A DNA stretch of 32,016 nucleotides from contig JADZEM010000159.1 in NCBI GenBank assembly GCA_020850535.1, positions 1 through 32,016 of the forward strand, given 5' to 3'. Made by a program: the position numbers and the translations under genes. Under the pieces are notes generated by a model. The model did not search any database, was not told where the DNA came from, and worked only from the letters and a program-made list of their open reading frames with translations. Shown here piece by piece: positions 29,303 through 31,835 of the stretch; position 1 is the first letter of the stretch; every line of letters starts with the position of its first letter. The DNA is from Chloroflexota bacterium (lineage in GTDB: Bacteria > Chloroflexota > UBA6077 > JACCZL01).

Positions 29303-30655
29303 TCAGTGTCCTGCCACGGGAATGTGTACCGCCATCTCGAACACGGCCAGCAGCAACGATGCCAGAAACCCGACGATCGTGGCGGGGGCGACGCCCGCGT
29401 GGCCCGACTCGTAGGCCTCGGGCATCATCGTCATGGCGAGCATCGCCACCACGCCGCCGCCGGCCACCGAGCCAAGAAACGCCACCAACGCCGGCGAGGC
29501 GTCGTGCAAGCCCAGGTAGCCGACCGTGCCGGCCAGGGCGCTGCCGACGGCCAGCCCGATCCACATCATGGCGATCCGCCCGATACTGAACTTCGCGCGG
29601 AGCAGCGCACTGGTGCCGCCAACCGCCTCCGGCAGGTTCGACAGGAAGACGGCCACCATGAACGTGGGGGAGAAGGCCGCCAGCGACACAAAGCTCGCGC
29701 CGATGGCCGCCGACTCCGGGATGCCGTCGAGCAGTGTGCCCAGGAAGATCGCCAGGGGCGAGCTGCTCTCGCCGTGACGCTCGGCGGCGGCGTCGGCCTC
29801 GGATCGCGACAGGTTGCTGATGCTGCCGACCGCCACCCGGTGCCACTCCTCGGCGTCGGTGAGGCTGCTCCGCTGTGCCGTCACGAACAGCTCGTGGGTC
29901 ACCAGGTTCTCGACGATCCGCCGCAGGCACGGCACCTTCTCGGCGGCGTGCTGGAAGTCGATGCGGGCCAGCATCAGCAGCTCGCCGTCGCTGCGGGCCA
30001 CCAGCGACGCCGTCCGTGGCTCGCCGCTGAGCATGCCCAGACCACCGACCATCGCGTACGCCTCGACAGCGTGCTTCGTCTCCTGTGCGTCGGGGCCAGC
30101 GGAGACGTGCTGGAGGTCGAACGCGCCATTCGCCACCAGATACACACCGTCCGAGGCGTCGCCCTGGCGGTAGACGGTCTGTCCCGCCGTCACGGCGATC
30201 CGCCGCACGAACGGCAGCAGCTCTTCGATCTCTTCCGGCTTGAGGCACTCGGCGAGCTTCGAGCGCGCGATCACCTGGAGGAGCGGCGCGAGCGCCTGGC
30301 GCTTCTCTTCGAGGGCGCGCTTCCGCTGCCGATGACGCCAGTGCAGGCCACCGCCCATCTTCTCGATGACGATGTTCAGCCCGACGTAGACCATGCCACC
30401 ACCGAGAAAGCCGGCTGCGAGAATGCCCCAGGTCAGCAGCGGCTCGTAGCCGTGGTCACGGACCATTTCGGAGGCCGGATCGACGGCCAGCTCGGTCACG
30501 ACAGCGTGGATCAGCGCACCGCTGCCAAAGCCCATGATGAGGGCCACCAGCCGAGCCGGCGGACGAAACACCAGGGCGATGATCGCGCCGAGTGGCAGCG
30601 ACAGGGCGGCGGCGCCCGCGAGTGCCCCGGCAATCAGTGCGTCAGGGACCGGCAT
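29303..30655 (-). CDS. ZIP-family metal transporter with a cyclic-nucleotide-binding domain in its cytoplasmic loop
   Basis: 450 residues from ATG 30655, with GGGGGAG six bases upstream. Three helices come first (about 5-28, 33-57, 73-97; MGFGSGALIHAVVTELA is typical ZIP helix 2). A basic helix leads to a cNMP-binding domain (about 128-250): AGQTVYRQGDASDGVYLVANG (157-177), then the phosphate-binding cassette MVGGLGMLSGEPRTASLVA with the phosphate-contacting R214 kept, but the usual Glu of 'GE' replaced. The ZIP core resumes with helix 4 LLDGIPESAAIG (D310, E314) and helix 5 FLSNLPEAVGG (N340, E343), where metal ligands lie; the common helix 4 His is Asp here. The insertion point is the long helix 3-4 loop, which is cytosolic in ZIPs, so direct control of metal flux by cAMP is the natural reading. 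It is 49 bases downstream of the mog-like gene on the same strand. Confidence 0.9.
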   Translation of the reverse strand: MPVPDALIAGALAGAAALSLPLGAIIALVFRPPARLVALIMGFGSGALIHAVVTELAVDPASEMVRDHGYEPLLTWGILAAGFLGGGMVYVGLNIVIEKMGGGLHWRHRQRKRALEEKRQALAPLLQVIARSKLAECLKPEEIEELLPFVRRIAVTAGQTVYRQGDASDGVYLVANGAFDLQHVSAGPDAQETKHAVEAYAMVGGLGMLSGEPRTASLVARSDGELLMLARIDFQHAAEKVPCLRRIVENLVTHELFVTAQRSSLTDAEEWHRVAVGSISNLSRSEADAAAERHGESSSPLAIFLGTLLDGIPESAAIGASFVSLAAFSPTFMVAVFLSNLPEAVGGTSALLRAKFSIGRIAMMWIGLAVGSALAGTVGYLGLHDASPALVAFLGSVAGGGVVAMLAMTMMPEAYESGHAGVAPATIVGFLASLLLAVFEMAVHIPVAGH

Positions 30656-30704: not shown

Positions 30705-31304
30705 CTACTGTGGTGATGGCCGCTGGTGATCTCCGACCTCGCCGCGCAGCAGGCTGACGGCGTGCGGCAGGGCCGGAAGCACCACGTCAAGGCATTCTCG
30801 CACGCCTTTGGGGCTGCCGGGAAGGTTGATGACCAGCGAATGGCCCCGCACGCCCGCAATGGCCCGTGAGGTCATCGCGGCCGGCGTCTTCGCGAGGCTG
30901 GCGGCGCGCATCGCCTCGGCGATGCCCGGCACATCGTAGTCGAGACAGCCGCGCGTCGCCTGTGGGGTCACATCGCGCGCGGCGAGGCCGGTGCCGCCGG
31001 TCGTCAGGATCAGATCCAGGCGGCGCTCGTCGGCCATGCGACAGATCTGGCCGGCGATCCGCTCGATCTCGTCCGGCACGATGACGTACTCACCGATGGC
31101 CGCGCCGGCCGCCAGCATAACCTCGCGGATGGCCGGCCCGCCCAGATCCTCGCGCTCTCCGCGCGAGGCCTTGTCGCTCACGGTGATGATGCCGACCGAG
31201 ATCAGCGGCTCGCTGACGCCTCCGCCGTGGGCGTGGCCGCCACGATGTCCGTGCGTCGCATGGCGATCGCCGTGCTGGTCCCCGCTGCCATGACGCTCAG
31301 CCAC
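30705..31304 (-). CDS. mog: Molybdopterin adenylyltransferase-like protein (MogA/MoaB) with His-rich N-terminus
   Basis: 199 residues from GTG 31304, with GGGAGG four bases upstream; the start overlaps the moaC stop by eight bases. From about residue 33 it is a MoaB/Mog domain: [19 protein letters not shown], the nucleotide/molybdopterin loop [16 protein letters not shown] (99-114), and [15 protein letters not shown]. The family activates molybdopterin by adenylation before metal insertion, in the cytosol. The first 30 residues hold seven histidines (5, 11, 15, 18, 20, 24, 26) among Gly and Asp, like the metal-storing tails of HypB or ZIP loops. No start codon lies between this tail and the domain, so the tail appears genuine. 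Mog versus MoaB cannot be decided from sequence alone. Confidence 0.88.
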
Positions 31305-31812
31305 GCTGCCTCCCGGTCGCCTCGGCCACCGCCTCGCCGGCGCGGACGTACTCGCCGCTCTTGCCGCCGACTTTGTGCATCAGCCTGATGTTGTCGACCA
31401 CCATGTCTTTGTCAACCGCCTTGCACATGTCGTAGACGGTGAGCGCGGCCGTCGCGACGGCCGTCAGCGCCTCCATCTCGACGCCGGTCTTCCCCACGAT
31501 GCGGGCAATCGCCGTGATCTCGACAGCAGAGGCGTCGTCGTCCAGCTCGAACTTCAGATCGACGCCGGTGATGGGGAGCGGATGGCAGAGTGGGATCAAG
31601 TCTGAGGTTCGTTTGGCGCCCATCACGCCGGCCACCTGGGCAATCGCCAGGACGTCGCCCTTGGTGACGCCGCCGGAGCGGATCAGCGCCAGCGTCTCCG
31701 GGCGCATCAGCACGCGGCCTCGGGCCGTGGCGATGCGGATAGTCTCGCCCTTGGCGCTGACGTCGACCATGCGGGCGCGGCCGGTCTCGTCGAGATGGGT
31801 CAGGTCGGTCAT
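31297..31812 (-). CDS. moaC: Cyclic pyranopterin monophosphate synthase
   Basis: 171 residues from ATG 31812 ([18 protein letters not shown]). MoaC converts the MoaA product, 3',8-cyclo-7,8-dihydro-GTP, to cyclic pyranopterin monophosphate in molybdenum cofactor synthesis. Signatures are [15 protein letters not shown] (67-81) and [20 protein letters not shown] (110-129), with D128 and K131 at the same numbers as the E. coli active-site residues. The frame allows a start at 31833, but GGGAGGGGAG precedes the internal ATG and the added residues are not conserved. It is first gene of a moaC-mog-transporter string. No moaA gene and no molybdoenzyme gene lies inside the window. Confidence 0.95.
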
Positions 31813-31835
31813 CGGATGCTGCTCCCCTCCCAACG

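Follow-up and report, generated by a model that had tools for sequence, protein, structure and literature searches.

ZIP-family proteins with a cyclic-nucleotide-binding domain inserted between TM3 and TM4, and a divergent member in a Chloroflexota bacterium

In the elevator transporter BbZIP, the transport domain consists of TM1, 4, 5 and 6, and the scaffold of TM2, 3, 7 and 8 (PMC9278863). The loop that connects TM3 to TM4, L(3,4), was found to be a zinc-sensing autoregulatory element that folds back and restrains uptake, and bacterial ZIPs have been stated to have no large intracellular domain (PMC10256678). The proteins described here share with ZIPs of the BbZIP/ZupT type the eight-helix fold, PE motifs in TM4 and TM5, and a TM3-TM4 loop that is predicted to be regulatory here as well. 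However, that loop, which is short and His-rich in the BbZIP/ZupT-type proteins, holds a 90-residue cyclic-nucleotide-binding (CNB) domain, or two in tandem, and the metal-site ligands differ. The plain "ZIP family zinc transporters" with DGIPES and SNLPEA motifs (~250 aa; Deinococcus, Rhizobium, Comamonadaceae) belong to the same ZIP subfamily but lack both the CNB domain and the GGFLRK linker. Channels of the MlotiK1 type and MscS-CNB fusions likewise join a membrane protein to a canonical cytosolic CNB domain, but they are ion channels. Their CNB domain is C-terminal and is not known to lie between membrane helices.

A precedent among carriers is the sperm Na+/H+ exchanger SLC9C1, which is modulated by cAMP via a fused CNB domain, an effect abolished by an Arg-to-Gln substitution in the binding cassette (PMC6052114). 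SLC9C1, like the present family, is a carrier and not a channel, but it has another transporter fold, is eukaryotic, and has a voltage sensor between the exchanger and the CNB domain. Bacterial MFS transporters with fused CNB domains, whose function is putative (noted in a review, PMC10710835), also combine a bacterial transporter with a CNB domain but belong to another transporter family, and the fused domains are usually C-terminal. The words "zip" and "zinc" do not occur in the text of a Genome Biology survey of CNB families (PMC2246266). No paper on a ZIP with a CNB domain was found in the literature searched, nor any account of a family member that binds a ligand or is gated by one; the scope of the search excluded preprints, most subscription journals and InterPro. 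The remark of an initial annotation of the locus, that no characterised ZIP gated by cAMP is known, agrees with the literature covered.

Architecture of the Chloroflexota protein

The host genome (GCA_020850535.1) comprises 7.65 Mb in 227 contigs, one of which (C159; JADZEM010000159.1), 32,016 nucleotides in length, was analysed in its entirety and is referred to as the window. The coordinates that the initial annotation had assigned to the gene were exact; the strand, which it had omitted, is the minus strand (Table 1). The sequence GGGGGAG, which is purine-rich, lies just 5' of the start codon. The GC3 of the frame was 0.88 compared to 0.72 and 0.48 in the other two frames. Coding is backed by this value and by the homologues of other genomes, whose domains follow one another in the same order.

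Table 1. Coordinates of the gene for the window protein, its parts and neighbouring genes (positions in the window; residues of the window protein)
Feature	Position	Strand	Evidence
Window protein (450 aa), a ZIP into which a CNB domain is inserted (start ATG at 30655, stop at 29303)	29303..30655	-	ORF, Pfam, alignment
ZIP TM1-TM3, residues 3-99	30359..30649	-	model helices; homology to plain ZIPs
Linker and pre-CNB helix, residues 99-150	30206..30361	-	alignment
CNB domain, residues 151-240	29936..30205	-	Pfam PF00027, PDB sequence matches, Foldseek
Phosphate-binding cassette VGGLGMLSGEPRTASLVA, residues 203-220	29996..30049	-	alignment, residue counts
Gly205 (Glu in other members)	30041-30043	-	
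Arg214 (kept)	30014-30016	-	
Post-CNB helices running into TM4, residues 241-297	29765..29935	-	AlphaFold2 model
ZIP TM4-TM8, residues 298-443	29327..29764	-	Pfam Zip
MoaB/Mog-type molybdopterin-binding protein	30705..31304	-	PF00994, E 2.7e-32
moaC	31297..31833	-	PF01967, E 7.6e-58
YfhO-like membrane region (GT-C type) with C-terminal Wzx/MurJ-like flippase, 1351 aa	25180-29235	+	Pfam
Class III nucleotide cyclase (double zinc ribbon, cyclase, AAA_16 ATPase, TPR), 1293 aa	6106..9987	+	Pfam, motifs

The proposed order of ZIP helices 1-3, a CNB domain and ZIP helices 4-8 was borne out by Pfam, by the structural model and by homologues, although the two Pfam domains did not score equally well. 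The cNMP_binding match (PF00027; residues 155-238, E 3.3e-13, 49.9 bits) exceeded the cut-off of 27.5 bits, whereas the Zip match (residues 298-418 against profile positions 176-299, E 6.7e-7, 29.3 bits) fell below the curated cut-off of 35.1 bits. The TM1-TM3 part was 25-42% identical to the N-terminal half of plain ZIPs. All of the motifs that had been named were located: GEPRTAS with R214 in the CNB domain, DGIPES in TM4 (310-315), and NLPEA (340-344) as part of SNLPEA in TM5; TM7 contains MPEAYE. Residues 98-132 have nine Lys and Arg versus three Asp and Glu, and the TM3-TM4 loop is the most positive, which agrees with ZIP topology and places the CNB insert inside the cell, as had been suggested.

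The AlphaFold2 model of the window protein, calculated with a 19-row alignment, had a mean pLDDT of 84.8 and a pTM of 0.71. It consists of helices at residues 3-99, a CNB β-roll (~150-230) with flanking helices, and helices at 299-443, and the pLDDT was below 50 only at residues 255-265 and the extreme C-terminus; the fold of the CNB domain is predicted confidently and intact. A Foldseek search of the PDB returned the CNB domains of CRP-type proteins, MlotiK1, HCN and PKA-R (E 1e-6 to 1e-7), and MlotiK1 was also among the PDB sequence matches. The 50 Foldseek matches listed were to CNB domains only; consequently, the ZIP fold was examined in a relative without a CNB domain (L032). A model was used because a PDB sequence search with the plain-ZIP alignment gave no ZIP structure, only weak matches to designed proteins. 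The L032 model (pLDDT 89.6, pTM 0.85) had BbZIP as all ten of its best PDB matches, which alone fell below E 0.001, with TM-scores to the target of 0.63-0.79. Moreover, plain subfamily members matched the NCBIfam ZupT profile over almost all of their own length (E 6e-13), and among 19 aligned single-CNB proteins all had a cNMP_binding match and 15 a Zip match (best 7e-12) in Pfam. The ZIP identity holds at the level of the family on the basis of Pfam, the ZupT profile and the similarity of the sister's model to BbZIP.

Asp310, Glu314, Glu343 and Glu413 were invariant in the 19 aligned members, Glu314 and Glu343 being the glutamates of the PE motifs in TM4 and TM5. In the motif alignment, BbZIP His177, Asn178 and Gln207 were replaced by Asp, Gly and Ser in the window protein. 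Since these metal-site ligands differ from those of BbZIP, the metal may not be zinc, and neither transport nor substrate is assured. The window protein is predicted to be an importer of a putative divalent metal substrate, within an overall explanation to which a moderate probability is assigned.

Distribution and phylogeny of the family

The window protein does not stand alone: it belongs, as a divergent member, to a family of CNB-inserted ZIPs that extends across many phyla. A scan of genome contigs with the window protein as the only query found no relatives because the protein is too divergent; an alignment of canonical linkers retrieved them. The linker-region scan of ~85,000 species genomes gave 53 loci, of which ~44 have the ZIP/CNB arrangement, whole or partial; nine were CNB proteins without a ZIP. 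The members are labelled as Chloroflexi, Spirochaetes, Chitinivibrionales, Bacteroidetes, Thermodesulfobacteriota, Rokuibacteriota (Rokubacteria), Elusimicrobia, Aminicenantes, Cyanobacteria, Gammaproteobacteria, Scalindua (Planctomycetota) and Verrucomicrobiales (Verrucomicrobia), although single labels may be wrong since most of the genomes are metagenome bins. The distribution is wide but thin. With three fusion sequences as queries, a survey of the window's own phylum, which the initial annotation had recommended, gave matches in 10 of 400 genomes, and the family was found in 9/296, 2/292 and 1/398 genomes from the sampled phyla of a spirochaete, a cyanobacterial and a gammaproteobacterial member, respectively, the last being the seed itself. 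No family member was found in the viral contigs searched and no ZIP/CNB fusion in the plasmids searched.

Two classes were distinguished, a single-CNB class of ~435 aa and a tandem class of ~615 aa with two CNB domains in the same TM3-TM4 loop (for example, L085:5725-7560, L095:5725-7560 and L104), found in cyanobacteria, gammaproteobacteria, Scalindua and Verrucomicrobiales. The order of domains was identical in the 19 aligned single-CNB proteins. TM3 is followed by a family linker motif, GGFLRKxAT, in which the columns of R105 and K106 are nearly invariant outside the window protein. The recurrence of the same order in independent genomes and phyla, and the single tree formed by the ZIP halves, leave a negligible chance that the frame is fortuitous, an assembly chimera or a product of mis-joined genes; a member in a Baikal MAG (G005) that is split by a frameshift between the CNB domain and the C-terminal part of the ZIP (ZIP-C) might suggest such an artifact, but the homologues refute it.

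Several members have interrupted genes. In L068 (Baikal-deep-G117, SHYK01000003.1) a -1 frameshift at GAG AAA AAA AAG separates the CNB domain from ZIP-C, and the same kind of split occurs in L034, L043, L052 and L055. The site includes a slippery heptamer of the dnaX type, A AAA AAG. The frameshift may stem from a homopolymer error in the bin, or it may be programmed and yield two products. Some tandem genes were broken or shortened (L116, from a Bathymodiolus gill symbiont, in two frames; L124 with a stop; L097 with a short frame), either by decay or by assembly error.

In a tree constructed from the ZIP columns only, all CNB-bearing proteins, including the window protein, formed one clade together with two ZIPs without a CNB domain, L032 (1045-1971) and L033 (45 rows, support 100/99). 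The tandem class was a single clade (100/99), and the plain ~250-aa ZIPs branched outside the CNB clade. L032 and L033 were nested inside the CNB clade and remained so when the window protein was left out. Secondary loss of the CNB domain in these two proteins is favoured because an AU test rejected a topology in which the CNB-bearing rows are held together as a clade of their own (p 0.03). Their TM3-TM4 loop contains an apparent, His-rich remnant of the pre-CNB helix (LHKLHADHLP, LHRLHIDHLP); possibly these proteins, having lost the domain, came to sense metal directly again.

Binding cassettes and candidate ligands

The phosphate-binding Arg, Arg214 in the window protein, was present in 19/19 aligned single-CNB proteins, and the ribose-binding Glu in 18/19. 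The exception was the window protein, which has Gly205 at this position, as expected from the earlier remark that the ribose-contacting Glu is absent. Eight further single-CNB members that lie outside the 19-row alignment (L062, L063, L068, L086, L127, L128, L130 and L131) all had both residues. Since 26 of the 27 single-CNB sequences read keep the Glu, its absence is a peculiarity of the window protein. The single-CNB relatives have a textbook GEMALLTGEPRSATA cassette, and because both residues are kept this class looks competent to bind cAMP or cGMP. The tandem class was different: Arg was found in 0/23 sequences in either CNB1 or CNB2, His replaced it in 16/23 and 21/23, respectively, and Glu was present in none of the CNB1 and 10/23 of the CNB2 cassettes. 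These substitutions look like a ligand switch and make the tandem CNB domains candidate sensors of an orphan ligand or a metal.

It is conceivable, if rather improbable, that the ligand of the CNB domain is neither cAMP nor cGMP but a pyrimidine cyclic nucleotide, a nucleoside or, for the tandem proteins, a compound whose binding requires His where Arg would normally stand. The tandem cassettes would fit such a proposal, and altered cassettes can switch CNB ligands, as in trypanosome PKA (PMC6440977), but the textbook cassette of the single-CNB relatives argues against it. In PADLOC the sensor domain of PycTIR was weakly matched (E 1e-6 for the window protein, 4e-11 for L064, its closest canonical relative), which would also favour another ligand, but any CNB domain should show such a likeness. 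Anti-phage defence was rejected as a role because the PycTIR similarity is the generic CNB similarity, and so was a Pycsar effector: the neighbours are moaC, mog and the flippase-type gene, not a pyrimidine cyclase, and only the CNB region is PycTIR-like.

The genes moaC and mog overlap by 8 nt and are followed, after a gap of 49 nt, by the window gene downstream on the same strand. The three genes are a possible molybdenum cofactor (Moco) operon with a metal transporter. However, conserved neighbours were sought across family members and not found, the genes near other members being unrelated (Lhr helicase, FtsZ, NiFe hydrogenase, HlyD, AraC and others), so the Moco link is not a family trait. 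Nor was a conserved gene partner that would link the family to cyclic nucleotides found among the neighbourhoods compared. The cyclase in the window has the catalytic motifs ADIVG, DKFMGDA and GDVVNTAAR, consistent with the claim that its catalytic set is intact, and is a possible source of ligand, though not linked to the window gene. The protein also has a partial likeness to a TOMM kinase/cyclase fusion model, far below the cut-off. The host genome has 12 matches to class III cyclases and 20 to CNB domains, and canonical cassettes are found in many of the latter, so a cyclic-nucleotide ligand is probably present in the cell.

The window protein diverges from the family in other respects. 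Its linker reads GGGLHWRHR, so that the family motif is lost, and it has the longest end branch of the tree (1.38). The median identity of its CNB domain to those of the members was 23%, compared to 36% among members, and that of ZIP-C 39% compared to 49%. With the Glu and the linker lost, the protein probably binds its ligand less tightly or prefers a different one, and cyclic-nucleotide control may be decaying. The description of the protein as a cyclic-nucleotide receptor is sound as to architecture, but the label suits the family better than a member whose linker motif is gone and whose neighbours in the tree have apparently shed the CNB domain.

A stronger form of this proposal, which is considered unlikely, is that the window protein is a constitutive ZIP whose CNB domain is a structural relic, no longer ligand-binding, an intermediate toward the CNB-free relatives. 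The loss of Glu at 205 and of the LRK linker, the faster divergence of linker and CNB domain than of the ZIP halves, and the nesting beside it of L032 and L033 with their pre-CNB-helix remnant (AU p 0.03) would all favour it. However, R214 and A216 are retained, as are the structural glycines, the frame is intact, the CNB fold is modelled with confidence, and the long branch leaves the exact placement of the protein unsure.

Proposed gating of the elevator

The fold, the insertion point and the conserved binding cassette of the family are directly supported. Because TM3 is part of the scaffold, which stays fixed, and TM4 part of the transport domain, which moves, the inserted CNB domain would form a cytosolic bridge between the two. 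Ligand gating is the best reading for the family, since the domain occupies a scaffold-transport loop that in BbZIP regulates zinc uptake. In the proposed mechanism, a cyclic mononucleotide, with cAMP the first candidate and cGMP the second, would bind to the CNB domain and move its C-terminal helices, which continue into TM4. The movement would permit or block the elevator stroke, a form of allosteric control. The favoured direction is that the CNB domain is autoinhibitory and that the ligand relieves the inhibition. That the family consists of divalent-metal importers in which the CNB domain gates the elevator via a cyclic nucleotide is considered reasonably probable as a whole, with metal, ligand, gating and direction all putative. 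For the window protein itself gating is the weaker case, since the Glu and the linker are gone, the CNB domain diverges faster and the nearest CNB-free relatives have seemingly lost it.

CNB domains often dimerise. Elevator scaffolds dimerise as well (PMC9278863), and together these properties could be taken to mean that the inserted domain is a dimerisation or membrane-anchoring spacer that never gates; this is quite improbable, as retention of Arg and Glu across many phyla is not expected of a mere spacer. If gating by a second messenger is retained as the preferred reading, a broader history can be offered tentatively, with slightly less than even confidence: such ZIPs would be thinly spread over ~10 or more phyla, the CNB domain having been inserted once, and one clade would have duplicated the sensor, exchanged Arg mostly for His and acquired a new ligand.

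The family contains canonical, Glu-less, tandem His-type and CNB-free relatives, so that ligand binding, gating and loss can be compared and probed by single mutations. The published claim that large intracellular domains are absent from bacterial ZIPs would have to be revised. If the proposed gating is correct, the family would provide a direct link, at the level of a single protein, from cyclic-nucleotide signalling to metal uptake, through a domain that spans precisely the interface at which the elevator moves.
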